Below, piece by piece: positions 3,851 to 35,930 of a DNA stretch of 40,832 nucleotides; the stretch's first letter is position 1; each line of letters begins with the position of its first letter. Made by a program: the position numbers and the translations under genes. The stretch is taken from assembly GCA_001603275.1 (NCBI GenBank), contig LUYM01000003.1, positions 1-40,832 on the forward strand, written 5' to 3'. The notes beneath the pieces were generated by a model that saw only the letters and a program-made list of their open reading frames with translations, did no database searches and was not told where the DNA came from. The DNA comes from Actinomycetales bacterium Actino_02 (GTDB taxonomy: Bacteria; Actinomycetota; Actinomycetes; Propionibacteriales; Propionibacteriaceae).

Positions 3851-3921
3851 GGGGACGGTTCCATTTCCGTCCACCGTTGTGAGGTGCTGGTTGGTGGCTG
3901 GACCGAAATGGAACCGTCCCC
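3851..3921. repeat. Inverted pair of GGGGACGG-type hairpin repeats
   Basis: Copy 1 (3851-3872) reads GGGGACGGTTCC then ATTTCCGTCC; copy 2 (3900-3921) is the reverse complement with one change. Both carry the ATTT variant of the family, so the two arms still pair along about 21 of 22 bases with a 27-base loop. The pair lies between convergent genes. Confidence 0.85.
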
Positions 3922-3936
3922 GCTGTCGACATCTCA

Positions 3937-3971
3937 CCGCAGAAAATGGGGACTGTCCCCTTTTTCTGCGG
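3937..3971 (-). terminator. 35-base hairpin terminator/REP-like element after the sugar operon
   Basis: A near-perfect palindrome of two 17-base arms around T3954, one mismatch, containing GGGGACTGTCCCC and flanking A- and T-rich arms ending in CTGCGG. It starts five bases after the stop of the MFS gene and is therefore the natural 3' end of the six-gene minus-strand operon. The GGGGAC...GTCCCC core resembles motifs known from RAYT-associated REP elements; that link is an inference. Confidence 0.7.
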
Positions 3972-3976
3972 GGGAG

Positions 3977-5347
3977 TCAGGCGGCGAGCCGGCGGACCTC
4001 GGCGCGTAGCGCGGGCGTCCAGGTTTCCGCGGTGAGCCCGGCGCTGACCAATCCGACCACCGAGTACACCATGAACAACAGTGCCGGCCCGACCCAGCCG
4101 AGCTGCAGCTGAAGGACGGTGGCCAGGTAAGGGGTCGCTCCGGAGATCACCGACGAGAGTTGATAGGCCAGCGAGGCCCCCGAAGATCGGACGCTCGGCG
4201 GGAACAGTTCGGCGAACCAACTGCCCTGGGAGCCGGCCAGGGCGTTCTGGCTGATCGCGAACGAGACGGTGAAGGCGATCACCGTCAGCCAGCGGTCGCC
4301 GACGTTCACCAGCAGGAACATCGGCACTGCCCAGCAGATGTTGAAGGCGGTGACCGCCAGATACTGTGGACGCCGTCCGACCCGGTCGGTGAGCCGCGAC
4401 CAAGCCAGGGTGGCGAACACCCCGACTGCGGCGGCGACGCACAGCGCCAGGATGGTGTCGTCCTTCTCGGCCAGTGACGGGATGGAGTTGGTCAGATAGC
4501 TGGTCAGGTAGGTGATGGCCAGTCCGTACCCGCCGGTCTCGGCGACCCGCAGTCCGACTCCGCGGAGGAGGTCGCGCCACTCCCGCCGGACCACCTCCAC
4601 CAGCGGATCGCTGACGAGTTCACCGTCGGCGCGGACCTGCTCGAAGACGGGTGATTCCGGCACCTTTGAGCGGACGATCAGCCCGACTACGACCAGCACG
4701 ATCGAGCACAGGAACGGCACCCGCCAGGCCCAGTCGCCGGGCAGCTTGACCGAGGCCAGGAAGACCAGATTCGCGGCCAGCAAGCCGACCGGGAAGCCGG
4801 ATTGCACCCAGCCGGTGAACCGGCCCTTCTCTCGCCATGGCGCGTGCTCGTAGGTGATCAGGATCGCCCCGCCCCACTCGGCGCCGTAGGCCAGCCCCTG
4901 CAGGATCCGGATGCTCACCAGGAGAGCCGGCGCCCACAGGCCGATCGCCTGGTAGGTGGGCAGCAGCCCGACGGCGAAGGTCGACAAGCCCATCACTAAC
5001 AAGGAGGCCACCAGGACGGGCTTGCGTCCGAGCCGGTCACCGAGGTGACCGCCGATGATGCCGCCCAGCGGACGAGCCGCGAACCCCACCCCGAGCACGG
5101 CCAGCGCCGACAAGGTGGCGGCCATCGGATCGTCCGCCGGGAAGAAGGCCGGGCCGAGATAGAGCGCGGCAGCCGTGGCGAAGCCGATGAAGTCGTAGCT
5201 CTCGATCACCTGGCCGACGGCGGCGCCGAGGGCGACCCGCTTCACCTGGTCGGTGCCGTGGATCGGACCGCGGAGGGCGGCGGTGGCCGAGGGTGGACGC
5301 GGCGTGAGTGGCTGATCGGAGCCTGAGGTGGCGGAGGGGCTCGGCAT
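3977..5347 (-). CDS. MFS transporter, metabolite:H+ symporter (MHS) type
   Basis: 456 residues with about 12 hydrophobic segments. The N-terminal motif GQVIESYDFIGFATAAALY and the loop GGHLGDRLGRKPVLV (between helices 2 and 3) place it in the MHS branch, which imports organic acids, osmolytes or other small metabolites with protons. A second GRRP motif follows in the C-terminal half (LTDRVGRRPQYL). It is the last gene of the ytf-like operon, 11 bases behind the LacI-type regulator, so it should be co-transcribed with the sugar ABC importer. A roughly 30-residue hydrophilic N-terminal extension precedes helix 1. The substrate is not visible from sequence; a breakdown product or alternative sugar-related metabolite would fit the context, as inference only. 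Confidence 0.85.
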   Translation of the reverse strand: MPSPSATSGSDQPLTPRPPSATAALRGPIHGTDQVKRVALGAAVGQVIESYDFIGFATAAALYLGPAFFPADDPMAATLSALAVLGVGFAARPLGGIIGGHLGDRLGRKPVLVASLLVMGLSTFAVGLLPTYQAIGLWAPALLVSIRILQGLAYGAEWGGAILITYEHAPWREKGRFTGWVQSGFPVGLLAANLVFLASVKLPGDWAWRVPFLCSIVLVVVGLIVRSKVPESPVFEQVRADGELVSDPLVEVVRREWRDLLRGVGLRVAETGGYGLAITYLTSYLTNSIPSLAEKDDTILALCVAAAVGVFATLAWSRLTDRVGRRPQYLAVTAFNICWAVPMFLLVNVGDRWLTVIAFTVSFAISQNALAGSQGSWFAELFPPSVRSSGASLAYQLSSVISGATPYLATVLQLQLGWVGPALLFMVYSVVGLVSAGLTAETWTPALRAEVRRLAA

Positions 5348-5358
5348 GATGGTGCGGG

Positions 5359-6450
5359 TCAGGCCGGTGGCGGTGCCGTGCTGGCCCGCAGCACGAGCTG
5401 AGGCACCCGCAGCAAGGGGTTGGGGGCGGTCTCGTCGGTGAGGACGGCCAGCATCACTTCCATGGCATCGCGGCCCAGCTGGGCGAAGTCCTGATGCATG
5501 GTGGTCAGCGGCGGGGAGAAGTGTGCGGCCTCCGGGATGTTGTCGAAGCCGATCACGCTGACCGAGCCGGGGACGTCCCGGCCGGCTTCAGTGAGGGCGT
5601 GAATCAGACCAAGGGCCATCTGGTCGTTTCCGCAGAAGACCGCGGTGAAGTCGTCCTCCAGCAGCCGCCGCCCGGCCGCATAGCCGCTGGCCGCCGACCA
5701 GTCGCCGACGATCGGGTCATGAGCCACCAGATCATGTTCGGCCAGCAGATCTCGCCAGCCGCGAGCCCGTTCCAGGGCGTCCATCGACTCCAGCGGCCCG
5801 GCCAGATGCCGGATCTTGGTGTGGCCCAGTTCGACCAGATGCCGCACGGCCCGCTTGGCCCCGGCGTACTGGTCGAGCGAGACCCGGTGCAGGTCGCTGC
5901 CCTGCGAAACCACCCCGAGGAACGGCACACCCAGGTCCATGCTCTGCAGCAGCCCGAGCGCGGCGCGATTGGAGGTGATCAGCACGATCGCCTCCACGTT
6001 CTGCCGCACCAGCGTCTCGGCGGCTTGGCGCAGCGCGAAGGCGTCCGACTGGAGCAGGCTGGCCATGATCACCGCATAGCGCTCGTCCCGGGCAGCCTCG
6101 TTGAAGTAGACCGCCGTGGTGGACGGGCCGTACTCGGGCAAACCGGTGGTGATCAGCCCGATCGTCCGGGATCGGCGGGTGACCAGGGCGCGAGCCGCGG
6201 GGGACGGGATGTAGCGCAACTGCTGGATCGCTCGCTGCACCCGCTCCCGGGTGGCCGGACGGACGTTCGGTAGCTCGTTGAGCACGCGCGAGACGGTCTG
6301 GTGGGACACACCAGCCAGGCGAGCAACGTCAAAAATCGTCGCCGCCTTGGTGCGTTCTTCCTCGGTCGTCACCGCCGTACCTGCTGTCCCGGGTTTGCGG
6401 ACTCCAACGGTCCTCCCGGGGCCAGATGCTACCGACACCGGACCACTCAA
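5359..6450 (-). CDS. LacI-family transcriptional regulator of the ytf-like operon
   Basis: Helix-turn-helix at the N-terminus (TIFDVARLAGVSHQTVSRVL) followed by a periplasmic-binding-protein-like effector domain (GLITTGLPEYGP through VSVIGFDNIPEA). It is encoded inside the operon it probably controls: a TTG start at 6450 overlaps the yjfF stop by four bases (TTGA). That start leaves a 35-residue tail before the HTH; an in-frame GTG at 6372 (VTTEEERTKAATIF) would give the usual short N-terminus, and I cannot decide between them. The effector is probably the sugar carried by the ABC importer. Candidate operators lie upstream of ytfQ at 11291-11411. Confidence 0.9.
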   Translation of the reverse strand: MSGPVSVASGPGRTVGVRKPGTAGTAVTTEEERTKAATIFDVARLAGVSHQTVSRVLNELPNVRPATRERVQRAIQQLRYIPSPAARALVTRRSRTIGLITTGLPEYGPSTTAVYFNEAARDERYAVIMASLLQSDAFALRQAAETLVRQNVEAIVLITSNRAALGLLQSMDLGVPFLGVVSQGSDLHRVSLDQYAGAKRAVRHLVELGHTKIRHLAGPLESMDALERARGWRDLLAEHDLVAHDPIVGDWSAASGYAAGRRLLEDDFTAVFCGNDQMALGLIHALTEAGRDVPGSVSVIGFDNIPEAAHFSPPLTTMHQDFAQLGRDAMEVMLAVLTDETAPNPLLRVPQLVLRASTAPPPA

Positions 6451-10215: not shown

Positions 10216-11214
10216 TCAGTACTTGCGGGTGGGCAGAGCCGTCTTGGCCTGGTCCTGGGTGAAGGTGGTCTCGTCGGTGACGATCCGCTTCTCGACAGCC
10301 TCGCCGGCGTTGAGCTTCTTGACGATGTCGATCAGCTGCTTGCCGAGGAGCGGGGAGCACTCGACGATGAAGTTGATCTTGCCGTCAGCCAGAGCCTGCA
10401 TTCCATCGTGGACCGCGTCAACGGTGACGATCTTGATGTCCTTGCCCGGCACCTTGCCGGCCGCGGTGATCGCCTCGATGGCGCCCAGGCCCATGTCGTC
10501 GTTCTGCGCGAAGACCAGGTCGATCTTCGGCTGCGACTTCAGGAAGGCCTCCATGACCTGCTTGCCGCCGGCGCGGGTGAAGTCACCGGTCTGGCTGGCC
10601 ACAACCTTGAGGTTGCTGTTCGACGCGATGGCGTCGGCGAAGCCCTTGGCCCGGTCGATGGCCGGGGCGGAGCCCGTGGTGCCTTCGAGCTGGACGATGT
10701 TCACCGGAGCCGAAGCGCTCTTGTACTCGTTGGCAACCCACTCGCCGGCCTTCTTGCCCTCGAGCACGAAGTCGGAGCCGAGGAAGGTGGCGTAGAGCGA
10801 GGTGTCCTTGGAGTCGACTGCACGGTCGGTCAGGATGACCGGGATCTTCGCAGCCTTGGCCTCATTCAGGACGGCGTCCCAACCAGTCTGGACGACCGGG
10901 GAGAACGCGATGTAATCCACACCCTGCTGGATGTAGGAACGGATGGCGCTGATCTGGTTCTCCTGCTTCTGCTGAGCATCGGAGAACTTCAGCTGGATCC
11001 CGGCCTCCTTGAAGGAGTCCTGGATATCCTTGGTGTTCGCGGTACGCCAGCCACTCTCGGCACCCACCTGTGCAAAGCCGACAACGATCTTGTCCAGCGG
11101 CTTGTTCGCGGCACCGCCGGCGCCACCGCTCGCTGCGGGGGTAGCCCCGCCACTGCAAGCCGAGAGCGCCATGACCAGCGCAGCGGCTGCGAAGAGACCA
11201 ACGGTCTTCTTCAT
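10216..11214 (-). CDS. ytfQ: Sugar-binding lipoprotein, YtfQ-like
   Basis: 332 residues. Lipoprotein signal MKKTVGLFAAAALVMALSAC, with the lipidated Cys at residue 20, then a Gly/Ala linker and a periplasmic-binding-protein-4 domain. Segments such as VGFAQVGAESGWR, FSDAQQKQENQI, FSPVVQTGWD and QTGDFTRAGGKQVMEAFLK are near-identical to the E. coli YtfQ galactofuranose-binding protein. I chose ATG 11214, preceded by AAGGAGG with six bases spacing; an upstream ATG at 11235 would place that ribosome-binding site inside the gene. First gene of the operon, with a roughly 70-base 5' UTR. The substrate is probably a furanose sugar (galactofuranose by homology), untested. Confidence 0.92.
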   Translation of the reverse strand: MKKTVGLFAAAALVMALSACSGGATPAASGGAGGAANKPLDKIVVGFAQVGAESGWRTANTKDIQDSFKEAGIQLKFSDAQQKQENQISAIRSYIQQGVDYIAFSPVVQTGWDAVLNEAKAAKIPVILTDRAVDSKDTSLYATFLGSDFVLEGKKAGEWVANEYKSASAPVNIVQLEGTTGSAPAIDRAKGFADAIASNSNLKVVASQTGDFTRAGGKQVMEAFLKSQPKIDLVFAQNDDMGLGAIEAITAAGKVPGKDIKIVTVDAVHDGMQALADGKINFIVECSPLLGKQLIDIVKKLNAGEAVEKRIVTDETTFTQDQAKTALPTRKY

Positions 11215-11290
11215 CTTGAACCTCCTTGTTCGCAACCCGCGGTGATGCAGGAACCACCACGAGGAACGGCCGCCCGTGGCCGTAGCGAAA

Positions 11291-11319
11291 TGTTAAGGCT
11301 CACATGTGAGCCCTAACAA
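11291..11319 (-). promoter_or_regulatory. ytfQ promoter with a 28-base palindromic operator in its spacer
   Basis: On the minus strand -35 TTGTTA (11319-11314) and -10 TTAACA (11296-11291) are separated by exactly 17 bases. The spacer together with parts of both boxes forms a 28-base palindrome (11291-11318) centred on CACATGTG with half-site TGTTA(A/G)GGCTCACA, imperfect at a single symmetric pair. A repressor bound here would block RNA polymerase directly. The LacI-family protein of the operon is the obvious candidate. Confidence 0.75.
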
Positions 11320-11370
11320 TCGGCTGTGACAATCCGTTATGAACTCGTTACCGTGCCTAGTGGGCGCGCC

Positions 11371-11384
11371 TGAGAGCGCTTACC
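11371..11384. promoter_or_regulatory. Auxiliary LacI-type operator (centre)
   Basis: TGAGAGCGCTTACC fits the LacI-family pattern TGTAAgCGcTTACA at 11 of 14 positions, including the central CG. It lies about 73 bases upstream of the promoter operator. Confidence 0.5.
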
Positions 11385-11391
11385 TCTGCCG

Positions 11392-11411
11392 TCACATGAG
11401 CGCTCACAATT
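11392..11411. promoter_or_regulatory. Auxiliary LacI-type operator (distal), lacO-like
   Basis: On the minus strand this site begins AATTGTGAGCGCTCA, identical over 15 bases to the ideal symmetric lac operator, with the second arm diverging. The central TGAGCGCTCA is a perfect palindrome. It is 97 bases from the centre of the promoter operator, a distance suited to DNA looping by a tetrameric repressor. Confidence 0.55.
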
Positions 11412-11504
11412 GGGCTCTCTGATCGGCCTCGACTAGGGACTTTGCGTCCCCGGACGGGTGACGTCCATCTTTCGTCCGCTGCGACCCCCGACCTCGGGAC
11501 GAAA

Positions 11505-11672
11505 GGGGACGGTTCCCGTTACGTCCCAGGGATGGCAGCGACAAGCCCGGTAGGCCGATGACGGGGACGGTTCCATTACCGTCCACCCTGGCCAGCCCGA
11601 CTGCTGGGGACGGTTCCATTTCCGTCCAACCCTCTCGCAGCGGGAACCTTGGACGGTAATGGAACCGTCCCC
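11505..11672. repeat. Cluster of four GGGGACGG-type hairpin repeats
   Basis: Copies at 11505-11527 (variant ...CGTTACGTCCC), 11563-11584, 11606-11627 (ATTT variant) and, inverted, 11651-11672. Copies 2 and 3 are direct with a 43-base period; copy 4 reads in the sense direction of the histidine kinase gene and begins five bases after its TGA stop. The rest of the gap 11215-11677 holds the ytfQ promoter and operators described separately. Confidence 0.85.
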
Positions 11673-11677
11673 GGTGA

Positions 11678-12781
11678 TCACACGAGGGGGACGCGCAAGG
11701 TGAAGGTCGAGCCCTGGCCCAGGCCGGCCGAGGCGGCGCTCAGCGAGCCGCCGTGGCGAGCCAGGATGCTGCGCGAGATGGTGAGCCCGATCCCCGAGCC
11801 GGTGTCGCCGACCGATCGGGAGCCGGGCACCCGGTAGAAGCGCTCGAAGATCCGGGGTAGTTCGGCTTCGGCGATCCCGACGCCGGTGTCGGAGACCTCG
11901 ATCAGGCCAGTCCCGGCGTCGCGTCGACAGCGCAGCTGTACTCGTCCGCCGCTCGGGGTGGCTCGCAAGGCATTGCCGACCACGTTCGTCACAGCCTGGG
12001 CCAGCCGGTCCGCGTCCACCTCGGCGGGCAGCGGGACGTCACCGGGCTCGATGACCAGCGTGATACCGGCATCCTCGGCCTGTGGACGCAGCCGCTGCGC
12101 GGCCCGTTCGGCGACCTCGCGCAGGTCGGCGCGGGCCGGATGCAACTCCAGTCGGCCCTCCTCGGCCTTGGAGAGCATCGACAAGTCATCGCCCAGCCGG
12201 CGCAGCCGGCGCACTTCGTCGCTGATCTGGGACAGGTTCGCCGGCGTCGTCGGCAGCACCTGATCGATCATCCCCTCGACGTAGCCGTCGATGACGGTCA
12301 GTGGGGTGCGCAACTCGTGGGCCACCTCGCCGAGGAGGCGTAGCCGGCGGGCCTCCGTCTCGGCCAGCGCCGCGCCCAGAGTGTTCACGTCGGTGGCCAG
12401 CCCGGCCAGCTCGATCTCCTTCGGGACGTCCACCCGGGCCTGGTACTGGCCCTCGGCGATGTCCTTGGTGGCCCGGCGCAGTGCCGCCAGCGGGCGTCCG
12501 ATCCGGTAGGCGAGCAGGACACCGAGGATCGTGGCGGCCGCCACCCCGATCAGGGCTCCGATCAGCAGAGACGAGTCGACCGCCGAGGCGAACTGGTCGC
12601 GCAGCATCTGGCCTTGTCCCTGGCCGGCGCTGCCGCGTCCCATGCCCGGGTTCGGATTGCCGCGCAGGCTGGCGTCGAACAGTGCCGGAGCCAGTGCCCG
12701 CACCACGAAGAAGGTGGTCACCGCGCCGAGTACGGCCACCAGCAGGTGGGAGAGCACCATCCGGGCGCTGAGGCTCTTCAT
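11678..12781 (-). CDS. Sensor histidine kinase (BaeS/MprB-like)
   Basis: 367 residues. Transmembrane helix about 8-30, a short extracytoplasmic loop (about 31-70) rich in Gly, Met and Gln (NPGMGRGSAGQGQGQM), second helix about 71-92, HAMP domain about 90-145, HisKA with phospho-acceptor H155 in EVAHELRTPL, then the ATPase domain with an N-box-like NVVGNALRATPSGG, DTGVGI (G1) and GSGIGLTISR (G2). ATG at 12781 overlaps the response-regulator stop by four bases, so kinase and regulator form a cognate pair. The very small sensor loop suggests an intramembrane or metal/envelope-stress signal rather than a large ligand. Confidence 0.92.
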   Translation of the reverse strand: MKSLSARMVLSHLLVAVLGAVTTFFVVRALAPALFDASLRGNPNPGMGRGSAGQGQGQMLRDQFASAVDSSLLIGALIGVAAATILGVLLAYRIGRPLAALRRATKDIAEGQYQARVDVPKEIELAGLATDVNTLGAALAETEARRLRLLGEVAHELRTPLTVIDGYVEGMIDQVLPTTPANLSQISDEVRRLRRLGDDLSMLSKAEEGRLELHPARADLREVAERAAQRLRPQAEDAGITLVIEPGDVPLPAEVDADRLAQAVTNVVGNALRATPSGGRVQLRCRRDAGTGLIEVSDTGVGIAEAELPRIFERFYRVPGSRSVGDTGSGIGLTISRSILARHGGSLSAASAGLGQGSTFTLRVPLV

Positions 12782-14323: not shown

Positions 14324-14401
14324 GGGGTGCTCCTTGTGCTCGTTGTTCACCGTGATGAGACGAAGTTAGGAGCCGGGGATGAAGCCTCCCGCGGGGCTTT
14401 C

Positions 14402-14428
14402 GTGAAGCTTGTGTGAAGGCGGGTGAAG
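14402..14428 (-). promoter_or_regulatory. Three direct CTTCAC repeats: likely response-regulator binding site of the DUF2202 operon
   Basis: On the minus strand CTTCAC occurs at 14428-14423, 14418-14413 and 14407-14402, one helical turn apart (10 and 11 bases). A plausible -10 TAACTT lies at 14368-14363 with no good -35, so the repeats would be at about -46 to -72. This is the arrangement expected for an OmpR-family activator. Confidence 0.6.
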
Positions 14429-14430
14429 GC

Positions 14431-14498
14431 GGGGACGGTTCCTGTTACGTCCCAGGCTTCATCGGGCGCGAGGTTGGGACGTAACAGGAACCGTCCCC
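14431..14498. repeat. Perfect inverted pair of GGGGACGG-type repeats (24-base stem)
   Basis: Copies at 14431-14453 and 14476-14498 carry the same variant core (CTGTTACG instead of ATTACCG), so their arms still match perfectly over 24 bases including one extra pair; the loop is 20 bases. GTTTTG follows on the plus strand. It lies between eno and the DUF2202 promoter and could insulate the two. Confidence 0.85.
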
Positions 14499-14517
14499 GT
14501 TTTGTATCAGGAGAGGA

Positions 14518-14546
14518 GCCGGGGGCGGGCGTGACCCGTCCCCGGC
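14518..14546 (-). terminator. Hairpin terminator of the enolase gene
   Basis: Twelve-base GC-rich stem (14518-14529 with 14535-14546, one mismatch) and five-base loop, 15 bases beyond the enolase stop. No U-run, as is common in high-GC actinobacteria. Confidence 0.5.
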
Positions 14547-14561
14547 CTTACCGAGGAGGTG

Positions 14562-15827
14562 TTACCGGTCCAGGCCGTAGGGCAGGGACGGGTTGGCGGC
14601 CTCGATCTGGACCAGCCGGTTGTACTTGGCGATCCGCTCGCCACGGGCTGGGGCGCCGGTCTTGATCTGGCCGCTGCCGGTTGCCACGGCCAGGTCGGCG
14701 ATGAACGTGTCCGGGGTCTCGCCGGAGCGGTGCGAGACCATCTGGCCGTAGCCGGCCTCGCGGCAGATCCGCATCGCCTCCAGGGTTTCGGTGACGGTGC
14801 CGATCTGGTTCACCTTGATCAGGGCGGCGTTCGCGATCCCGTCCGCGATGGCCGCGGTGATGATGGCCGGGTTGGTGCAGAAGTTGTCGTCGCCGACCAG
14901 CTGGATCTTGCCGCCCAGGGTGGCGGTGAGCTGCTTCCAGCCGTCCGGATCCTGCTCACCCAGGCCGTCCTCGATGCTCCAGATCGGGAACCGGTCGACC
15001 ATCTCGGAGTAGCGGGCGATCATGTCGGCGCTGCTCAGCAGCTTCCCGTTGACCTTGTAGCCGTCGGCGGTCCAGAACTCCGAAGCCGCCGGGTCGAGGG
15101 CGATCCCCACTCCGGCCTTGCCCAACGGGTAGCCGGCGTCGCCGATCGCAGCGACGATCAGCTCCAGCACCTCCTCGGGCTCGGCCAGGTTCGGGGCGAA
15201 GCCGCCCTCATCACCCAGCCCGGTGGCGTGTCCGCCGGCGACCAGCCGCTTGCGCAGGGCGGCGTAGACCTCCGCGCCGGCCCGGACGGCTTCGCGCATC
15301 GAGGTGGCCCCGATCGGGCAGATCATGAACTCCTGGAAGTCGAGCGGGTTCGGGGCGTGGGCGCCGCCGTTGAGCACGTTGAAACAGGGCACCGGCAGCC
15401 GGTGCGTCCCTCCGATGCCGGGCAGCCACTCGTACAGCGGCTTTCCGGCGGACGCGGCCAGCGCCCGGGCCAGCGCCATCGACGTGCCGATCAGGGCATT
15501 CGCGCCGAGGCGGGCCTTGTTCGGGGTGCCGTCCAGATCGCGCATCGCCTGGTCGACCTCGGCCAGACTCGTCCAGCTGCGTCCGGATAGGGCGGCGTTC
15601 AGTTCGCCGTTCACGTTGCCGACGGCCTTGCTGACCCCGGAGCCGCCGAAGCGGGCTGGGTCGCCATCGCGCAGTTCGACGGCCTCCCGGCTTCCGGTGG
15701 ACGCGCCGGACGGAACTCCGGCCTCGGCCACGGTGCCATCAGCCAGGCTGACTGTCACGGTGAGGGTGGGGCGGCCACGGGAGTCGAGGATCTCGATCGC
15801 CTGCACACCACTGATTTCGAAAGCCAC
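14562..15827 (-). CDS. eno: Enolase (phosphopyruvate hydratase)
   Basis: Glycolytic enzyme interconverting 2-phosphoglycerate and phosphoenolpyruvate in the cytoplasm. 421 residues, the usual length. Motifs: ILDSRGRPT, VPSGASTGSREAVELRD, NVLNGGAHAPN, GDEGGFAPN, SIEDGLGEQD, GDDNFCTN, LIKVNQIGT and VSHRSGETPD carry the Mg2+ ligands and catalytic Lys/Glu. I chose GTG 15827 (VAFEISGVQ) behind AAAGGGG; the longer frame to 15881 adds an unconserved 18-residue tail. The sequence (SLADGTVAEAG, KAVGNVNGEL, CFNVLNGGAHAPNPLDFQ) looks like a divergent enolase subtype, so a second, housekeeping enolase elsewhere in the genome is possible. Monocistronic. Confidence 0.93.
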   Translation of the reverse strand: MAFEISGVQAIEILDSRGRPTLTVTVSLADGTVAEAGVPSGASTGSREAVELRDGDPARFGGSGVSKAVGNVNGELNAALSGRSWTSLAEVDQAMRDLDGTPNKARLGANALIGTSMALARALAASAGKPLYEWLPGIGGTHRLPVPCFNVLNGGAHAPNPLDFQEFMICPIGATSMREAVRAGAEVYAALRKRLVAGGHATGLGDEGGFAPNLAEPEEVLELIVAAIGDAGYPLGKAGVGIALDPAASEFWTADGYKVNGKLLSSADMIARYSEMVDRFPIWSIEDGLGEQDPDGWKQLTATLGGKIQLVGDDNFCTNPAIITAAIADGIANAALIKVNQIGTVTETLEAMRICREAGYGQMVSHRSGETPDTFIADLAVATGSGQIKTGAPARGERIAKYNRLVQIEAANPSLPYGLDR

Positions 15828-18233: not shown

Positions 18234-18728
18234 ATGACCGAACAGACCCCTCGGTGGCTGAGCGAGGAACAGACTCAGGCCTGGATCGCGCTCGCCTCGA
18301 TGATGGTCTGGCTGCCATCGGCATTGGACGATCAGCTCGAGCGCGATGCGGGAATGACCTACGTCGAGTACACGGTGCTGTCGTGGCTGTCCATGCAGCC
18401 CGGACGGACGTCACGAATGAGTGATGTCGCATCGCTGGCCAATGTCAGTGCGTCCCATCTGACCCGGATCGCCATTCGGCTGGAGTCGCGCGGCTGGCTG
18501 ACCCGTCGGCCTGACCCCAACGACGGGCGGGCCACCTTGGCCACGCTGACCGAGGCGGGCTGGGAGAAGGTCGTCCAGACGGCCCCCGGCCATGTCGAGG
18601 AGGTGCAGCAGCTGGTTTTCGACGGACTGTCTGCGGCCCAGGTCCGGCAGCTGCGGGTGATCGGGGAGACGGTGGCCAAGGCGGCTCGGCCGGGTCTGTG
18701 CCTGCCGTCGCCGGGCCCCACCGACTGA
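18234..18728 (+). CDS. MarR-family transcriptional regulator
   Basis: 164 residues; winged helix with VSASHLTRIAIRLESRGWLTRRPDPNDGRATLATLTEAG, the recognition helix and DPNDGR wing characteristic of MarR. Probably represses itself through the palindrome at 18205-18224 and may control the divergent TIGR02206-MFS pair. The start is fixed by the promoter geometry (leaderless). The ligand is unknown. Confidence 0.9.
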   Translation: MTEQTPRWLSEEQTQAWIALASMMVWLPSALDDQLERDAGMTYVEYTVLSWLSMQPGRTSRMSDVASLANVSASHLTRIAIRLESRGWLTRRPDPNDGRATLATLTEAGWEKVVQTAPGHVEEVQQLVFDGLSAAQVRQLRVIGETVAKAARPGLCLPSPGPTD

Positions 18729-18752
18729 GCTGTCGCGGTTGAGCCGTGGAGT

Positions 18753-18817
18753 GGACGGTAATGGAACCGTCCCCACGGATTGCGCTGACAAGGATGGACG
18801 GTAATGGAACCGTCCCC
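18753..18817. repeat. Direct pair of GGGGACGG-type hairpin repeats
   Basis: Copies 18753-18774 and 18796-18817, both reading GGGGACGG on the minus strand, 43 bases apart. The second begins three bases after the TGA stop of the SulP gene and the pair fills the space between convergent MarR and SulP genes, so it may serve as their shared 3' element. Confidence 0.85.
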
Positions 18818-18820
18818 GGG

Positions 18821-20515
18821 TCAGCGGCGACGAGGGACGGGCTGGCCGGTCAACTGACGTGAGACGTGGCTGCGGGCGTGGGCCACGGCGGCGTCCAGGT
18901 CGTCGAAGACATGCTCGCGGGTGCGTAGCGCCTCCAGGACGCCGGCCCGGGCGGCCATCCGTTGGTGCCGGTTGCGCAGACCCTTGATCAGCACGGTGAC
19001 ACCGCGCGCTTCGAGCAGCTTGACGATCTCGGCGAGCCGATGGGCGCCGGTCGGGTCGAGCAACTCGACGCGGGACAGTCGCAGCACCACCACCCACGCG
19101 TCGGCGTCGGCGATGTCGTCCATCACCCGGTCGGCCGCACCGAAGAACAGCGAGCCCTCCAGCCGGAGCAGGGCAATGTGCTCGTCGCCGGGACGGGTCG
19201 GGCCGGGCAGGTCCTGGTGGGCGACATGGGTGGTGTCGGCCAGGGCCCGCAGTGCGAAGAAAGCGGCCAGCACCAGCCCCACTTCGACCGCGGTGAGCAG
19301 GTCGAGCAGCACGGTGCAGGCAATGGTCACCACGAAGGTTGCCGTGGTGCTGCGTCCCAGCCGCCACAGGCCGCGCACCTCGCGCAGATTGACCATGTGC
19401 AAGGTGGTGGCGATCAGCACCCCGGCTAGCGCCGACAGCGGAATGCGGGAGGCCAGCCCGGAGCCGAACGCGACCACGGCGGTGAGCAGCACGGCATGAG
19501 TGACCGCGGAGAGCCGGGAGCGGGCGCCGGCGCGGACGTTCACAGCGGTGCGGGCGATGGCGCCGGTGGCCGGCATGCCGCCGAACAGGCCGGACGCGAT
19601 CGAGGCCAGACCCTGGCCGAAGACCTCACGGTCGGGCAGCACCCGTCCGGTCGGAGCCATCCCGGCCGCGACCCGCGCCGACAGCAGCGACTCGATCGCA
19701 GCCAGCGCGGCCACGGCCAGCGCGGGTCCGATCAGCTCGCTGAGAATGGCCGGATCGATCAGCGGGATGTGCGGCATCGGCAGCGACGAGGGCAACTCGC
19801 CGATCCGGGCCACCGGGAGCCCGGCCACCTCGGCCACAACAGTGGCCGCCACTACGGCGATCAAGGCGCCGGGCAGCGAGCCGGGCAGCCGGCGCAGGGC
19901 CTCGACCAGGACCACCACACCCACGGCGATGGTCAGTGGCAGCCAGGCGTGGCTCCAGTCGGCGATTCGGACGGCGTCGTAGGCGGCCAGCAGCGTCCGC
20001 TCTCCGGTCGGAGTGGACGTGTCCAGAGCCAACGGCACTTGCTGCAGGGCGATCACCAAGGCGATCCCGGCGGTGAAGCCTTCGATCACCGGCCACGGAA
20101 TGTAGACCACCACCCGGCCCAGTCGCAGCGCTCCGGCCGCCACCAGGATCACGCCGGCGATCACCGAGACCACGACCACCGCATGCGGACCGTGGCTGGC
20201 CACGATCGGGGCCAGCACGACCGCCATCGCTCCGGTCGGCCCGGAGACCTGCACGTGCGAGCCACCGAAGACAGCCGCCACCACGCCGGCCACGATCGCG
20301 GTGATCAGCCCGGCGGACGCGCCCAGCCCGGAGCTCACCCCGAAGGCCAAGGCCAGCGGCAGGGCGACGACGCCGACGGTGACGCCGGCGATCAAGTCGC
20401 GGCGCCAACTCGTCCGCAGGGGAGCGAGGTCGGCGGGACCGGGCAGCAGGCCGGTCAGGTGCCGGCGGATGTGGGCGGGGATCAGGGTGGGTCGCGGTGT
20501 GCTGGCGGTGGTCAT
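18821..20515 (-). CDS. SulP-family inorganic anion transporter with STAS domain
   Basis: 564 residues. Membrane domain of about 12-14 helices including DLIAGVTVGVVALPLALAFGV, FGGSHVQVSGPTGAM and a C-terminal half with GGMPATGAIARTAVNVRAG; cytoplasmic STAS domain from about residue 430 (LEGSLFFGAADRVMDDI, VVVLRLSRVELLDPTGAHRL). SulP proteins move sulfate, bicarbonate or other anions or dicarboxylates. It is 31 bases downstream of an ArsR-type regulator, presumably co-transcribed. No carbonic anhydrase or sulfur-assimilation gene is adjacent, so the anion remains open. Confidence 0.9.
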   Translation of the reverse strand: MTTASTPRPTLIPAHIRRHLTGLLPGPADLAPLRTSWRRDLIAGVTVGVVALPLALAFGVSSGLGASAGLITAIVAGVVAAVFGGSHVQVSGPTGAMAVVLAPIVASHGPHAVVVVSVIAGVILVAAGALRLGRVVVYIPWPVIEGFTAGIALVIALQQVPLALDTSTPTGERTLLAAYDAVRIADWSHAWLPLTIAVGVVVLVEALRRLPGSLPGALIAVVAATVVAEVAGLPVARIGELPSSLPMPHIPLIDPAILSELIGPALAVAALAAIESLLSARVAAGMAPTGRVLPDREVFGQGLASIASGLFGGMPATGAIARTAVNVRAGARSRLSAVTHAVLLTAVVAFGSGLASRIPLSALAGVLIATTLHMVNLREVRGLWRLGRSTTATFVVTIACTVLLDLLTAVEVGLVLAAFFALRALADTTHVAHQDLPGPTRPGDEHIALLRLEGSLFFGAADRVMDDIADADAWVVVLRLSRVELLDPTGAHRLAEIVKLLEARGVTVLIKGLRNRHQRMAARAGVLEALRTREHVFDDLDAAVAHARSHVSRQLTGQPVPRRR

Positions 20516-27125: not shown

Positions 27126-27323
27126 TTAGGGCCTCAGTGACACCATCGAGTAGACCGGATTATCCTCCTGGCTACGGTCGATGCTCCAGCCGCTAGCCCG
27201 AACCAGGGCGCCGAAGCTATCCAGGTGGCGCAACTGAAGCCCGAGGGGGTTACTCGCCTGCATGGCGTGAGTCAGTCGGCTCTCGCGCCACAGCGAGCCG
27301 ACCAGGACGAACCCTGTCCGAGA
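27126..27323 (-). pseudogene. Truncated gene remnant, possibly a methyltransferase C-terminus
   Basis: A 65-codon open stretch ends in TAA at 27126-27128 and begins right after an in-frame TAG (27324-27326) with no nearby start codon. It reads protein-like, with GFVLVGSLWRESRLTHAM, NPLGLQLRHLDSFGALVRAS and NPVYSMVSLRP, resembling the last strands of a class I SAM-dependent methyltransferase. The 5' part is missing. The remainder of the gap 27067-27395 shows nothing I can name. Confidence 0.4.
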
Positions 27324-27395
27324 CTATTCCTCTGTTGGTGAACTACGATTCCCGCGACGAACCGCGGTATTCCGAGAGAGTGTCTCCTGGCCGGC

Positions 27396-27950
27396 TCAGT
27401 TCAGCGGCAGCGGGCAGGATTCGGTGAAGCCGACGGGCGGGATGCCTAAGGCCTGGATCACGCGAGCCCAGTAGTTCACCTGCGCTGCGGTGGTGGCCAG
27501 GATCACCAGTTCGCGTTCGGTGAAGGACTCGCAAAGCGCGGTCGTGAGTTCGGTCGGGAAGCGCAGCGGCGAGCTCGAGATGCGTCGGGCGTAGTCGATG
27601 GCGTAGCGCTCGCGAGCCGAGAAGGAGGCGACCTCGTTCTCGCGGCCCGGACCGAGGGCCTGGAGTTCCTCATCGGTGATCCCGACCCGGTCGTACTCGA
27701 AGCCGTTCATGTCGACGCAGAACGCGCAGTTGGCGGTGATCGAGGCGGTGATCCGGACCAGCTTGAGCAGCCGATCGGACGGCTCGTGGTGGGCGACAAG
27801 GGATTCCAACACCCCGGCGCCGATCGCCGCCTTCGGATACCAGGCCAGCAGCCGGGCGGGCAGCATCCGGTGCCCGGTAACCCGCTCGGAGATGGCCACG
27901 CCCAGGCGCAGCAGCGGATTCATTCGACGGGGTTCAGCGACCAGTGCCAT
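27396..27950 (-). CDS. Carboxymuconolactone decarboxylase/AhpD-like protein
   Basis: 184 residues, all-helical. The redox motif is CAFCVDMN (CxxC; the downstream His of AhpD alkylhydroperoxidases is Asn here), within ITASITANCAFCVDMNGFEYDRVGI, then FSARERYAIDYARRIS and ERELVILATTAAQVNYWARV. Probably a peroxidase-type thiol oxidoreductase. ATG 27950 follows a structured leader (27964-28007) and lacks a strong ribosome-binding site. Confidence 0.8.
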   Translation of the reverse strand: MALVAEPRRMNPLLRLGVAISERVTGHRMLPARLLAWYPKAAIGAGVLESLVAHHEPSDRLLKLVRITASITANCAFCVDMNGFEYDRVGITDEELQALGPGRENEVASFSARERYAIDYARRISSSPLRFPTELTTALCESFTERELVILATTAAQVNYWARVIQALGIPPVGFTESCPLPLN

Positions 27951-27963
27951 GTACCCATGATGA

Positions 27964-28007
27964 TCGCGACGCGGTGCCGTCCGCACCAGTATGGCGTCTC
28001 GTCGCGA
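27964..28007 (-). promoter_or_regulatory. Nested hairpins in the leader of the AhpD-like gene
   Basis: Outer arms TCGCGACG (27964-27971) and CGTCGCGA (28000-28007), with an inner hairpin GGTGC/GCACC (27973-27987). It ends 13 bases before the ATG. It could be an RNA leader structure or a pair of operator half-sites. Confidence 0.45.
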
Positions 28008-28132
28008 CATCCTCCGAGTGCAGGTAGGCCCGCCGGGCGTTGGGGGCTGTCGGAGCTGAGGCCGAACGTGACTGTTCGCTGGTAGGCGGATTGTCGACGC
28101 CATGCGCCAGGGTGACCAATCCAAGATGTGCG

Positions 28133-28172
28133 AAGCGCCTCTGACCGGTGTTCCCGCCAGTCAGAGGCGCTT
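28133..28172 (-). terminator. Terminator hairpin beyond tRNA-Pro
   Basis: Perfect 13-base stem AAGCGCCTCTGAC/GTCAGAGGCGCTT with a 14-base loop, 8 bases beyond the encoded CCA of the tRNA. Confidence 0.7.
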
Positions 28173-28180
28173 TCCGCCTG

Positions 28181-28257
<77 letters not shown>

Positions 28258-29216: not shown

Positions 29217-29220
29217 CGGG

Positions 29221-32085: not shown

Positions 32086-32145
32086 GCATCTCGTCGCCTC
32101 GGCCGGGGCTGGAGCATCGTCAGCCAGGCTGATTAGGGTGATCCC

Positions 32146-32301
32146 ATGACTAAGTGGGAGTACGTGACCGTCCCGATCCTGGTGCATGCCACCAAGCAGA
32201 TCCTCGACAACTGGGGTGCCGACGGCTGGGAGCTGGTGCAGGTTGTGCCCGGACCCAACGCCGAGAACCTGGTGGCCTACCTGAAGCGTCCGCTCCAGTG
32301 A
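32146..32301 (+). CDS. Small DUF4177 protein
   Basis: 51 residues: MTKWEYVTVPIL...NWGADGWELVQVV, the DUF4177 pattern (KWEY, GWELV). Its stop overlaps the RidA start (GTGA). In Mycobacterium a similar short gene (Rv3678A, from memory) lies at the same place. Function unknown. Confidence 0.8.
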   Translation: MTKWEYVTVPILVHATKQILDNWGADGWELVQVVPGPNAENLVAYLKRPLQ

Positions 32302-32759
32302 CCGCCTCGCAGCGGCTGGCCGAACTCGGCATCACCCTGCCGGACGTTCCGGCGCCGGTGGCCGCCTACGTGCCGGCGGTGCGCGTCGACGACCTCGTCT
32401 ACACCTCCGGCCAGCTGCCCTTCGTGGCCGGCCAGTTGGCCGGTGCCGGCAAGGTCGGTGCTGAGGTCGACGCCGAGACCGCCGCGGGCCTGGCCCGGAT
32501 CGCCGGTCTGAACGCCATCGCGGCGGCCGCGTCGGTGGCCGGCGGAGTGGACGCCATCGCCCAGATCGTGAAGCTGGTGGTCTTCGTCGCTTCCGATGTC
32601 TCCTTCACTGGTCAGCCTGCGGTGGCCAATGGTGCCTCACTGCTGATTGGCGAGATCTTCGGGGATGCAGGCACGCACGCTCGCAGCGCTGTCGGCGTCG
32701 CCGTGCTGCCGCTGGATTCGCCGGTGGAGGTGGAGCTGATCGTCCGGGTCCGCGACTGA
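32298..32759 (+). CDS. RidA/YjgF-family protein
   Basis: 153 residues with YTSGQLPFV, LNAIAAAASVAGG and the C-terminal THARSAVGVAVLPLDSPVEVEL. The Arg in this segment corresponds to the substrate-binding Arg of RidA enamine/imine deaminases. GTG 32298 is coupled to the DUF4177 stop; the long open frame from 32154 is rejected. Family role: removal of reactive enamine/imine intermediates from PLP enzymes. Confidence 0.88.
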   Translation: MTASQRLAELGITLPDVPAPVAAYVPAVRVDDLVYTSGQLPFVAGQLAGAGKVGAEVDAETAAGLARIAGLNAIAAAASVAGGVDAIAQIVKLVVFVASDVSFTGQPAVANGASLLIGEIFGDAGTHARSAVGVAVLPLDSPVEVELIVRVRD

Positions 32760-33457
32760 TGGCTGCCGAGTCGAAGCGGGCGATGCGGGCCCGAGCCGCC
32801 GAGATCTTCGCGATCCTCGGCCAGACCTACCCGGACGCCCACTGTGAGCTCGACCATGCCGACGCCTGGCAGCTGTTGGTGGCCACCGTGCTCTCGGCCC
32901 AGTCCACCGACCGCCGAGTGAATACGGTCACCCCGGCGCTGTTCGCGCGCTGGCCCGACCCGTCCGCGCTGGCTGCGGCCGACCGCACTGAGTTGGAAGA
33001 GCTGATCAAGCCCACCGGCTTCTTCCGGGCCAAGACTGATTCGCTGCTGAAGCTGTCGGCTGCGGTGCAGTCGCAGTTCGGCGGAGTCGTCCCCGGGGTG
33101 CTGGAGCAACTGGTGACGCTGCCCGGGGTGGGGCGCAAGACCGCGAACGTGGTGCTCACCGACGCCTTCGGGGTGCCCGGGATCACCACCGACACCCACC
33201 TGATTCGGCTCTCCCGCCGGTTCGGCTGGACGGTGTCGGAGAATCCGGTGGTGATCGAGGCCGAGGTGGGTGCGCTGTTCGACCCGGCCGACTGGCGGAT
33301 GGTGAACCATCGGGTGATTTGGCATGGACGCCGCTGCTGCCATGCTCGGCGTCCGGCCTGTGGCGCCTGCCCGGTGGCCGGGCTGTGCCCGTCCTTCGGT
33401 GAGGGGCCGACCGATCCGAAGGTGGCGGCGAAGCTGATCCGGGAGCCTCGTGGCTGA
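32759..33457 (+). CDS. nth: Endonuclease III (DNA glycosylase/AP lyase)
   Basis: 232 residues. Helix-hairpin-helix LPGVGRKTANVVL with catalytic K127, catalytic D145 in GITTDTHLIRLSRRFG and a C-terminal 4Fe-4S cluster motif C-x6-C-x2-C-x5-C (CHARRPACGACPVAGLC). Removes oxidised pyrimidines from DNA. ATG 32759 overlaps the RidA stop by one base (TGATG). All key residues are present. Confidence 0.95.
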   Translation: MAAESKRAMRARAAEIFAILGQTYPDAHCELDHADAWQLLVATVLSAQSTDRRVNTVTPALFARWPDPSALAAADRTELEELIKPTGFFRAKTDSLLKLSAAVQSQFGGVVPGVLEQLVTLPGVGRKTANVVLTDAFGVPGITTDTHLIRLSRRFGWTVSENPVVIEAEVGALFDPADWRMVNHRVIWHGRRCCHARRPACGACPVAGLCPSFGEGPTDPKVAAKLIREPRG

Positions 33458-34118
33458 GCGCCATGCTGCTGGCGGGCCCGGCTTCGTCCCGGTGCCCGCC
33501 GAGTTGCTCGCGGCCCGAGCCCGGCTTGCCGAACCCGGAGTGCTGGCCCTGGCCACCGCTCGTCCACCGCAGGGCAAGCGCGCGGCCGCCGTGCTGATCC
33601 TGCTCAGCGAGGGCGAGCGCGGCTATCAGCTGGTCCTGGTCGAGAAGCGCGCCGAGCTGCGCACCCATGCCGGCCAGATGGCCTTTCCCGGCGGCGGCAT
33701 CGAGCCGGACGATGCCAGCCCGATCGCGGCCGCGCTCCGCGAGGCCGCAGAAGAAGCCGGGATCGTCGACGGCGTCGAGGTGCTCGGGGTGTTGCCGGCC
33801 GCCCACATTCCGCGCAGCGGCTTCGACGTGACGTCGGTAGTGGCCTGGTGGACGAACCCGCAGCCGCTGGCCGTCGTCGACACCGAGGAGCTGTCGGCTG
33901 TCCACGTGGTCGACGTGGACGATCTGCTCAACCCGGACCACCGCAGCACCTGGGTGCTGCCGGTCGGCTTCGAAGGCCCGGCCTTCGAGGTGGGTGACCT
34001 CTATATCTGGGGGTTCACCGCCTACCTGCTCGACGAGCTGTTCGACCTGCTTGGCTGGACGCGTCCCTGGCCGCGCGAGCGGCACACCGAGATCCCGCCG
34101 CGGTTCCTGGCCGGCTGA
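33450..34118 (+). CDS. NUDIX hydrolase (CoA pyrophosphatase-like)
   Basis: 222 residues. Nudix box GGGIEPDDASPIAAALREAAEEAGI (shortened here to its key positions: G-x5-E-x7-REAAEEAG) preceded by RTHAGQMAFPGG, the UPF0035/CoA-diphosphatase hallmark. GTG 33450 overlaps the nth stop. The C-terminal part YIWGFTAYLLDELFDLLGW fits the same group. Likely hydrolyses CoA or a related nucleotide pyrophosphate. Confidence 0.87.
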   Translation: MAERHAAGGPGFVPVPAELLAARARLAEPGVLALATARPPQGKRAAAVLILLSEGERGYQLVLVEKRAELRTHAGQMAFPGGGIEPDDASPIAAALREAAEEAGIVDGVEVLGVLPAAHIPRSGFDVTSVVAWWTNPQPLAVVDTEELSAVHVVDVDDLLNPDHRSTWVLPVGFEGPAFEVGDLYIWGFTAYLLDELFDLLGWTRPWPRERHTEIPPRFLAG

Positions 34119-34181
34119 GCTCGGCTCGCTTCGTCCGCCCGGTTACCGCTGCGCGAGCAGGGTGTCGGCGATGATGGAGCC

Positions 34182-35861
34182 ATGGCTTGGTGGCATAGCG
34201 CAGTCGCGTACCAGATCTACCCGCGCTCCTTCGCCGACAGCAACGGTGACGGCATCGGTGATCTCAAGGGCATCCTGACCCACCTGGATTACCTGGCCAT
34301 GCTGGGTGTCGACGTGATCTGGCTCTCCCCGATCTACCGCTCGCCGATGGACGACAACGGCTACGACATCAGCGACTACGACGACGTCGACCCGCTGTTC
34401 GGCACCATGGCCGACTTCGACGCCCTCGTCGAAGGCATCCATGCCCGCGGGATGCGGCTGGTCATGGACATGGTCCTGAACCACACCTCCGACGAGCATC
34501 CCTGGTTCATCGAGTCCCGCAAACCGGATTCGGCCAAGCGTGACTGGTACTTCTGGCGTCCGGCCCGCGACGGATTCGAGCCGGGCACTGAGGGCGCCGA
34601 GCCGACCAACTGGGGCTCCTTCTTCTCCGGCCGGGGCTGGGCCTTCGATCCGGCCTCCGGGGAGTATTACCTGCATCTGTTCAGCCCGCGGCAACCGGAC
34701 CTGAACTGGGAGAACCCCGAGGTGCGGGCCGAGCTCTACGCGATGATGCGGCGCTGGCTGGACCGTGGCGTCGACGGCTTCCGGTTCGACGTGATCAACC
34801 TGATCTCCAAGACGCTGCCGCTGACCGATGGCCCGGCCGGCCCGGACGGGATCTGCTACGACCCGTCCCTTGTGGTGGAGGGGCCGCGGCTGCATGAGTT
34901 CCTGCAGGAGCTGAACAGCGAGGTCGGGATCAGCGAACGCGAGCTGTTCACAGTGGGGGAGATGGTGCTGGTGAACAGCGCGGACGCTCGCGCCCACACC
35001 GATGCCGACGCCGGCGAGCTCGGCATGGTGTTCACCTTCGAGCACATGATGGTGGACGCCGGGCCGTCCGGCCTGAAATGGGATCTCGCCCCGCTGCAGC
35101 TGCCCGCGATGAAGGCGAACCTGGCGCACTGGCAGCAGGAGTTGGCCGACGTCGGCTGGAACTCGCTGTACTGGGAGAACCACGACCAGCCGCGTTCGGT
35201 GTCGCGCTTCGGCGACGATTCGCCGCAGTTCCGAGTGGCCTCGGCCAAGACGCTGGCCACCACCTTGCACCTGCTGAAGGGGACGCCGTTCATCTATCAG
35301 GGTGAGGAGTTCGGGGTCACCAATGCCGGGCTCACCGCCCTCGAGCAGTACGACGACATCGAGTCGCGTGGCTTCTATGCCAGCGCGGTGGCCATGGGGC
35401 TGGAACCGTCCCAGGCGCTCGACATGCTGGCGCGACGCAGCCGGGACAATGCCCGCACGCCGATGGCGTGGCACGGCGGCGCCGGCGCCGGCTTCAGTAC
35501 CGGGACGCCCTGGCTGCCGATCAACGCCAATCACAACCAGATCAATGCGGCCGACGCCCTAGCCGATCCGGATTCGGTCTTCCATCACTACCGCAAGCTG
35601 ATCGCGCTGCGGCACAACTCCGAACTCGTCCGGCAGGGACGCTTCGAGTTGCTGCTCGCCGAGCATCCGGCGCTGTTCTGCTACCTGCGCTCGTTGGAGG
35701 GTCAGTCGCTGCTGGTGCTGGCGAACTGGTCTTCGGAGCCGGTGCCGCTACCCCTGGACGAGTTGCCGTCGCTGACCGGGGCCCGGCTGCTGCTGGGCAC
35801 CCACGAGGAGTTGGGCGACACTCTGGCCGGCTGGGAGTCTCGGGTCTATCACCTCCGCTGA
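34182..35861 (+). CDS. GH13 alpha-glucosidase (oligo-1,6-glucosidase type)
   Basis: 559 residues. (beta/alpha)8 barrel motifs: VVNHT-like MVLNHTSDEHPWF, nucleophile D203 in GFRFDVIN, acid/base E260 in TVGEM and transition-state D335 in ENHDQPR. N-terminus WWHSAVAYQIYPRSFADSNGDGIGDL is typical of the alpha-glucosidase, trehalose-6-phosphate hydrolase and oligo-1,6-glucosidase groups. Val204 after the nucleophile suggests preference for alpha-1,6 bonds (family knowledge). No signal peptide, so a cytoplasmic enzyme. It occupies a locus otherwise similar to Mycobacterium and is followed by a pair of hairpin repeats. Confidence 0.88.
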   Translation: MAWWHSAVAYQIYPRSFADSNGDGIGDLKGILTHLDYLAMLGVDVIWLSPIYRSPMDDNGYDISDYDDVDPLFGTMADFDALVEGIHARGMRLVMDMVLNHTSDEHPWFIESRKPDSAKRDWYFWRPARDGFEPGTEGAEPTNWGSFFSGRGWAFDPASGEYYLHLFSPRQPDLNWENPEVRAELYAMMRRWLDRGVDGFRFDVINLISKTLPLTDGPAGPDGICYDPSLVVEGPRLHEFLQELNSEVGISERELFTVGEMVLVNSADARAHTDADAGELGMVFTFEHMMVDAGPSGLKWDLAPLQLPAMKANLAHWQQELADVGWNSLYWENHDQPRSVSRFGDDSPQFRVASAKTLATTLHLLKGTPFIYQGEEFGVTNAGLTALEQYDDIESRGFYASAVAMGLEPSQALDMLARRSRDNARTPMAWHGGAGAGFSTGTPWLPINANHNQINAADALADPDSVFHHYRKLIALRHNSELVRQGRFELLLAEHPALFCYLRSLEGQSLLVLANWSSEPVPLPLDELPSLTGARLLLGTHEELGDTLAGWESRVYHLR

Positions 35862-35864
35862 CCC

Positions 35865-35930
35865 GGGGACGGTTCCATTACCGTCCGCCCTGGTCAGCAG
35901 CCACTTCCGGGGACGGTTCCATTACCGTCC
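35865..35930. repeat. Direct pair of GGGGACGG-type hairpin repeats
   Basis: Copies 35865-35886 and 35909-35930, 44 bases apart, reading in the sense direction of the GH13 gene and starting three bases after its TGA. The pair lies between convergent GH13 and holin-like genes. Confidence 0.85.

Follow-up and report, generated by a model that had tools for sequence, protein, structure and literature searches.

The 40,832-nucleotide stretch of DNA considered here (the window) is contig C3 (LUYM01000003.1, positions 1 to 40,832) of Actinomycetales bacterium Actino_02, a member of the Propionibacteriaceae with a genome of 3.05 Mb in 31 contigs. It holds 12 copies of a short hairpin repeat, REP-A, a sequence like the repetitive extragenic palindromic (REP) elements, and these are spread over five intergenic gaps. 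The repeats probably belong, as a high-copy REP-like family of about 290 copies, to a REP-associated tyrosine transposase (RAYT) resident in this genome, the HUH tyrosine transposase RAYT-A encoded on contig C29. By analogy, repeat and protein are likely to make up a GGGG-type REP-RAYT system, which would work like the GTAG REP-RAYT systems with GGGG replacing GTAG. The copy number, the foldable hairpin with its GGGGAC core and the repeats at the flanks of RAYT-A are seen directly in the DNA. We infer that RAYT-A mobilises the repeats, and the family probably consists of small mobile elements.

In the reading direction used here, the repeat unit is GGGGACGGTTCCATTACCGTCC. A first sample of 83 copies, taken from positions 1-400000 of contig C6 and from the window, contains this exact form 30 times, followed by GGGGACGGTTCCTGTTACGTCC (12 copies) and GGGGACGGTTCCATTTCCGTCC (11 copies). 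The forms GGGGACGGTTCCATTACCGTCC and GGGGACGGTTCCATTTCCGTCC are named subtype A1, and the TGTTACGTCC form is named A2. The A1 fold consists of GG followed by the hairpin GGACGGT-TCCATT-ACCGTCC (-6.8 kcal/mol as DNA, z -2.8). A2 is often preceded by the arm GGGACGAAA, located before GGGG, which can pair with the TTACGTCCC end of the unit. An earlier note, made from the letters of the window alone, had described the core as GGACGGT, a loop and ACCGTCC; the stem is present, but the most conserved part is GGGGAC, and the fixed part of the family reads GGGGAC[G/A]G. The whole-genome search proposed in that note, carried out with GGGGACGGTTCC-N5-CGTCC at one mismatch or fewer, gave 291 matches and 0 for the control. 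A wider sample of 808,222 bp in stretches (26% of the genome), in which copies were counted at two mismatches or fewer, contains 139 copies grouped into 56 clusters. The same sample holds 19 matches to a second, palindromic family B, GGGGACWGTCCCC within CCGCAGAAAA / TTTTCTGCGG. At C6:297875-298303, three REP copies lie 197-210 bp apart, each heading a similar stretch of about 200 bp; such stretches are perhaps a larger composite element.

The genome-wide search for transposases of this kind returned two Y1_Tnp genes, both on contig C29. The window itself, as the earlier note had stated, appears free of them, with no transposase among the 15 of its 39 proteins scanned against Pfam. RAYT-A is a protein of 262 aa of the HUH tyrosine transposase type; its gene was found once, and Y1_Tnp is its only Pfam match. 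Three REP-A copies lie behind the 3′ end of the gene and two before the 5′ end, all with GGGG away from the gene, so that the search for a RAYT flanked by the same hairpin, also suggested in the earlier note, ended in its discovery. The second protein, RAYT-B, is 58% identical to RAYT-A and is flanked by family B on both sides. RAYT-A is intact and retains the HUH and Tyr residues that are invariant among its relatives. The structure model of a 60%-identical relative (mean predicted local distance difference test score, pLDDT, 89.5) is closest to 4er8, the RAYT of E. coli bound to REP (E 2.2e-7, TM 0.74 by target), and includes additional C-terminal helices at 188-248. A helix-turn-helix (HTH) family, HTH_23, matches weakly in 10 of 25 relatives. 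RAYT-A looks like the subclass 2.1/TIRYT proteins.

Within the window, the pattern GGACGGT-N6-ACCGTCC (three mismatches or fewer) has 27 matches, compared with a mean of 4.87 (sd 2.36, max 15) in 100 dinucleotide shuffles. Twelve of the matches belong to the REP-A family and also fit GGGGACGGTTCC-N5-CGTCC at two mismatches or fewer, which has 12 matches in the window; the remaining 15 are scattered and GC-rich. The stem of 7 bp is perfect in 6 of the 12 copies, and 6 are variants. All the places given by the earlier note are occupied, the copy listed at 14476 starting at 14477. The copies, together with a single one of family B, are as follows:

3851-3872, plus strand: REP-A copy, GGGG end at left, in a long inverted pair with 3900-3921
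3900-3921, minus strand: REP-A copy, inverted partner of 3851-3872
3937-3971, no strand assigned: single palindromic copy of family B, the type flanking RAYT-B
11505-11526, plus strand: REP-A copy of subtype A2, whose arm GGGACGAAA occupies 11496-11504
11563-11584, plus strand: REP-A copy, subtype A1, perfect stem
11606-11627, plus strand: REP-A copy, subtype A1, 43 bp past the preceding copy (11563)
11651-11672, minus strand: REP-A copy, perfect stem; the stop codon of gene 11678-12781 (minus strand) lies 5 bp from its GGGG end
14431-14452, plus strand: REP-A copy, subtype A2, pairing with 14477-14498
14477-14498, minus strand: REP-A copy, subtype A2, inverted partner of 14431-14452
18753-18774, minus strand: REP-A copy, perfect stem, inner member of a direct pair with a 43-bp period
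18796-18817, minus strand: REP-A copy, perfect stem; the stop codon of gene 18821-20515 (minus strand) lies 3 bp from its GGGG end
35865-35886, plus strand: REP-A copy, perfect stem, GGGG end 3 bp past the stop codon of gene 34182-35861 (plus strand)
35909-35930, plus strand: REP-A copy, perfect stem, second member of a direct pair with a 44-bp period

As DNA, the inverted pair 3851/3900 folds at -23.9 kcal/mol (z -5.6) and the pair 14431/14477 at -37 kcal/mol (z -9.8). Genes were called with our own script, not a standard gene finder. By these calls, the sites lie in three convergent gaps (3563 to 3977, 18728 to 18821 and 35861 to 35945) and two same-direction gaps (11214 to 11678 and 14350 to 14562). 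No window copy is found inside a called gene and each of the five gaps contains the 3′ end of at least one gene, which bears out the earlier description of the window. A search of Rfam at gathering thresholds gave tRNA as the sole match, with the repeats unmatched.

The claim that the repeats never occur in a coding region holds for the window but has exceptions in the wider sample, where 51 of 56 clusters are clear of called genes and 5 overlap one. Two of these overlaps look in-frame, two fall in doubtful gene starts, and one is a three-copy cluster that touches the gene through its poorest match only. With 291 matches, most clusters free of genes and a RAYT carrying the same hairpin at its flanks, the earlier suggestion of REP/RAYT-type elements was right in kind; it had missed the departure of the RAYT from the classical GTAG-REP type, the orientation rule and the few intragenic copies. 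A reading frame of 702 aa, presumably, from its translation, a fusion of the CysG-CobH type, contains at C5:16331-16538 three in-frame REP-A copies together with a palindrome of family B; these repeats read as an inter-domain linker. Another REP-A copy (C6:454335-454356) is in-frame near the C-terminus of a 427-aa protein, presumably PurD.

The 51 gene-free clusters lie between genes of the same direction in 26 cases, between convergent genes in 17 and between divergent genes in 8. Convergent gaps are over-represented (17 of 51 versus 61 of 405, p 0.0025), and the depletion of divergent gaps is not significant (8 of 51, p 0.09). The adjacency to stop codons is directly seen: 25 GGGG ends lie just behind one, at a distance of 15 bp or less, and the expected number is 11.1 with clusters displaced inside their own gaps (0 of 5000 trials as extreme) and 18.5 with clusters flipped (3 of 5000). 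No cluster end lies within 15 bp of a start codon. A TGA precedes GGGG by no more than 8 bases in 17 of the 81 copies at outer positions and in 2 of the 58 at inner positions.

The outward orientation and the 43-44-bp arrays are likewise plain in the wider sample. Neighbours at most 250 bp apart are arranged ++ in 42 cases, -- in 23, +- in 18 and -+ in none, so that GGGG points outward in 18 of 18 mixed-orientation neighbours. Spacing is 43 or 44 bp in 39 of the 65 same-direction neighbours. For five relatives, the matches listed were used (100 of 219 places in G142, 50 of 80 in G152, 48 of 48 in G109, 100 of 121 in G161 and 50 of 104 in G162). Among them, +- to -+ stands at 12:4, 13:3, 0:0, 17:0 and 23:1, respectively, or 65 versus 8 when pooled, and the commonest spacings are 24 and 47 in G142, 34-35 in G152, 43 in G109, 29 in G161 and 21 in G162.

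A RAYT relative is found in 14 of 30 genomes of the genus, several of which are incomplete; the closest named contigs are those of Propionicimonas and Micropruina. The motif is present in 14 of the 14 genomes with a RAYT relative (1 to 291 matches each) and in 4 of the 16 without one (15, 1, 1 and 1 matches). The genus counts of RAYT loci come from rows L007-L027 of our list and those of other phyla from L031-L107, with L028-L030 left out; L009 and L028, as well as L012 and L030, are the same contigs listed twice. At the 21 genus loci, GGGGWSRS occurs outward on both sides in 20 and inward on both sides in 6. The arms that flank the core were compared over 90 motif occurrences at these loci. 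They match each other within a RAYT and not across RAYTs (7.19 versus 5.19, sd 0.30, with none of 300 arm-swapping permutations doing as well); from relative to relative the arms differ while their complementarity is kept. The A1 copies of RAYT-A are an exception in form: their stem overlaps the core, and they score low in this comparison. In G142, three RAYT relatives (L012, L021 and L027) each have their own GGGGAC repeats.

Similar signs are seen in other phyla. Among RAYT relatives of at least 240 aa, GGGGWSRS occurs outward on both sides in 15 of 41 and inward on both sides in 4 of 41, and relatives shorter than 240 aa give no orientation signal (outward 5 of 36, inward 6 of 36). Eight other-phylum genomes were selected because the flanks of their RAYT carry a similar core. 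In three of them GGGGACGGTTCT is abundant, with 121 matches in Butyrivibrio (L031), 104 in a member of the Lachnospiraceae (L037) and 120 in a member of the Bacteroidales (L046); the other five hold 18 in one and 4, 2, 0 and 0 in the rest, with controls of 0-1 throughout. The four genomes with 0-4 matches mean that the core is rare or absent in half of those tested. A broader proposal has roughly even chances, in which GGGG-type REPs would be a separate and widespread REP-RAYT class, belonging to the HTH-bearing subclass that has been listed as REP-less. These RAYTs would all read the same fixed GGGGAC core, each with its own pair of co-evolving arms, and an 11-base core, GGGGACGGTTC, would be kept in Actinomycetota, Bacillota and Bacteroidota. 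Such repeats would have one polarity, with GGGG outwards, beside stop codons, and in one complete genome would be confined to the origin-proximal part of the chromosome.

The turnover of the repeats was followed in the related genome G109, with 79-94% DNA identity in the aligned blocks. From the 13 clusters of C6:1-140000, the 6 aligned to G109 were those with colinear flanks; the other 7 were not aligned. The direct pair of cluster 13659 is common to both genomes. Cluster 19942 has two copies versus one decayed copy in G109, cluster 119370 has three copies at 34-bp spacing versus one, and cluster 114868 has five versus one, while clusters 62306 (three copies) and 124973 (six) have no copy there. 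Overall, 2 of the six are shared, 2 have fewer copies in G109 and 2 are absent. None of the window sites compared has a copy in G109 (the site at 35.9 kb lies outside this comparison), and the 80 kb around the window counterpart contain, away from the sites compared, a single weak match (2 mismatches).

Window clusters border segments in which the two genomes differ. One is the major facilitator superfamily (MFS) transporter gene at 3977-5347, which G109 lacks, and another lies around the MarR-type gene at 18234-18728. The segment 11482-14564, with genes for a histidine kinase, a response regulator and a DUF2202 protein, has REP clusters at both ends with A2 copies outermost; G109 lacks it, the same neighbours being 118 bp apart there. 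That REP clusters mark breakpoints of gene content is true for the compared window sites, but as a rule the idea was dropped because clusters of C6 also sit between colinear genes. Beside the tRNA-Pro gene (28181-28257), the counterpart points of window positions 27224-28159 are about 22 kb apart in G109, where the extra DNA is perhaps an element inserted at tRNA-Pro. On the G109 chromosome C1 (3,262,476 bp), all 48 copies (27 sites once those within 3 kb are merged) are confined to a single arc around dnaA. The arc without copies extends from 0.228 to 2.000 Mb, 54% of the chromosome (0 of 20,000 random placements as extreme). The origin was placed by assumption at dnaA, whose full-length match is found at 2.963 Mb; a DnaA domain is matched more weakly at 2.473 Mb.

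The closest known parallel is found in the TIRYT genes. According to sections of PMC3733652 (Di Nocera et al. 2013), these have GGGGWSAS terminal inverted repeats that are moderately abundant in some species, with the largest family in S. maltophilia. RAYT-A shares with them the HUH-Tyr protein, the flanking inverted repeats starting with GGGG, the further repeats in the genome as dimers and clusters and, probably, a C-terminal HTH-like part. The repeats of RAYT-B fit the TIRYT tag (GGGGACAG/GGGGACTG), whereas that of RAYT-A, GGGGACGG, is one base off, with G often at position 7 in place of A, and the family here is far from moderate at about 290 copies. As given in parts of PMC6006769, subclass 2.1 of TnpA-Y1 probably corresponds to TIRYT and is equated with RAYT group 1 of Bertels 2017. 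Its members were found in 14.9% of the surveyed strains, with their targets left open, and Quentin et al. (2018), who searched both automatically and by hand, found no REP-like sequences for it. The same parts assign only subclass 1.1 to Actinobacteridae, in contrast to the actinobacterial RAYT with REPs described here. New here is a high-copy GGGG-tagged REP family, of defined anatomy, that goes with a RAYT with a probable HTH-like tail in an actinobacterium, together with signs of the same core in other phyla. The available sections of PMC8049555 and PMC11708052 contain nothing on GGGG-type REPs, and a search for the core strings in open-licence paper texts gave seven papers, none of them about REPs to judge by the titles.

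The GTAG REP/REPIN-RAYT systems of E. coli, Pseudomonas and Stenotrophomonas resemble the present one in their short palindromes, present in hundreds of copies near gene 3′ ends, and in their tie to a RAYT-fold protein, as suggested by the modelled match to 4er8. In passages of PMC3733652, REPs are described as lying close behind genes and able to supply stop codons, another likeness, and GTAG families as having both kinds of inverted dimer, unlike the sample here with its lack of inward neighbours. In many relatives of RAYT-A, moreover, the fixed part lies inside arms that vary. Membership of the GTAG REP/REPIN group was rejected, as the tag of aligned copies is GGGG and not GT[AG]G. The CGTC-tagged REPs, which in PMC3733652 (in part) have no dedicated transposase reported, share the CGTCC end of the unit; membership was again rejected, since CGTCC, in place of an unpaired tag, is paired in the A1 stem and the family is associated with a RAYT. 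Elements of the IS200/IS605 type (IS608, ISDra2) have the HUH-Tyr fold and hairpins at their ends, but here short gene-free hairpins are multiplied, unlike the single RAYT-A gene. An intrinsic terminator was discarded as well, the 3′ tails of the copies being ACCCT, GGCCT, ATCCT and similar with no T-run. Sections of PMC8266576 describe a tag that can act as a guide, with a GTGG tag giving CC cutting; a corresponding GGGG guide choosing a CC cut was set aside as weak, with CC before GGGG in 23 of the 81 copies at outer positions and in 14 of the 58 at inner ones.

A mechanism can be proposed for such a system. RAYT-A would bind the folded single strand through the GGGGAC core and, using its HUH/Tyr chemistry, make a cut next to the hairpin, probably at replication forks; in this way copies would reach new sites. 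From a single copy or an outward pair, tandem duplication may then build a direct array. Copies would persist mainly just behind stop codons, where insertion does little harm, and the transcribed hairpin may act as a 3′-end RNA structure. A dispersed 3′ regulatory element, which the earlier note had offered as an alternative, may in this way be a second role of the repeats.

Several observations weigh against a RAYT-driven mobile family. The two RAYTs reach 67.9 and 71.9 bits with NCBIfam NF047646 (REP-associated tyrosine transposase), below the cut-off of 80, and the tag differs from the GTAG type. Sites common to this genome and G109 mean that some copies are old. The genus genome G092, 100% complete in 180 contigs, has 15 motif copies and no detected RAYT relative, and several RAYT-bearing genomes of the genus have just 1-7 copies of this motif form. 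The 8 inward pairs among the relatives break the orientation rule. The exact 22-mer has 0 records in the contig database, from which those of this or a very near genome are perhaps excluded, and is found at one mismatch or fewer in only 2 of 147 genomes of the family, and so this exact form is narrow.

The one-orientation stop-codon adjacency and the excess of convergent gaps could also be produced by the host: selection would keep transcribed hairpins that terminate transcripts, make mRNA more stable or prevent read-through, recombination would spread them, and the RAYT would be incidental. We regard such host 3′-end elements as unlikely. The same hairpin is present on both sides of the RAYT, the arms co-vary with the RAYT and not the host gene, divergent genes flank 8 of 51 clusters, and some of the arrays are lacking in G109 where the genes on either side are colinear. 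According to parts of PMC3733652, moreover, known mobile-type REPs share this 3′-end bias. Still less probable is an old family whose present spread and loss are due solely to recombination and replication slippage of the host, RAYT-A having another role. Such relics would account for the 2 of 6 aligned clusters common to G109, the array differing by 34-bp tandem expansion only and the copies kept by G092; they fit poorly with the many identical copies (30 of 83 in the first sample) and with the intact RAYT-A and its conserved HUH and Tyr residues. The regular 43-44-bp spacing of 22-bp repeats recalls small arrays of the CRISPR (clustered regularly interspaced short palindromic repeats) type or DNA uptake signals. 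This origin is very improbable: the inter-repeat parts are similar from array to array, which disfavours CRISPR, the arrays have few repeats and lie scattered (56 clusters in 808 kb), and a RAYT carries the repeat at its flanks.

The REP-A family of RAYT-A joins a subclass 2.1-like RAYT with hundreds of hairpins, in contrast to the 2018 classification of subclass 2.1 as REP-less given in sections of PMC6006769, and the same core is present in 104-121 exact copies per genome in three genomes of two further phyla. With such hairpins and the same core elsewhere, the question of what these domesticated transposases act on can be put to the test on defined substrates, and the related RAYTs, whose arms differ, form a natural series for studies of recognition.

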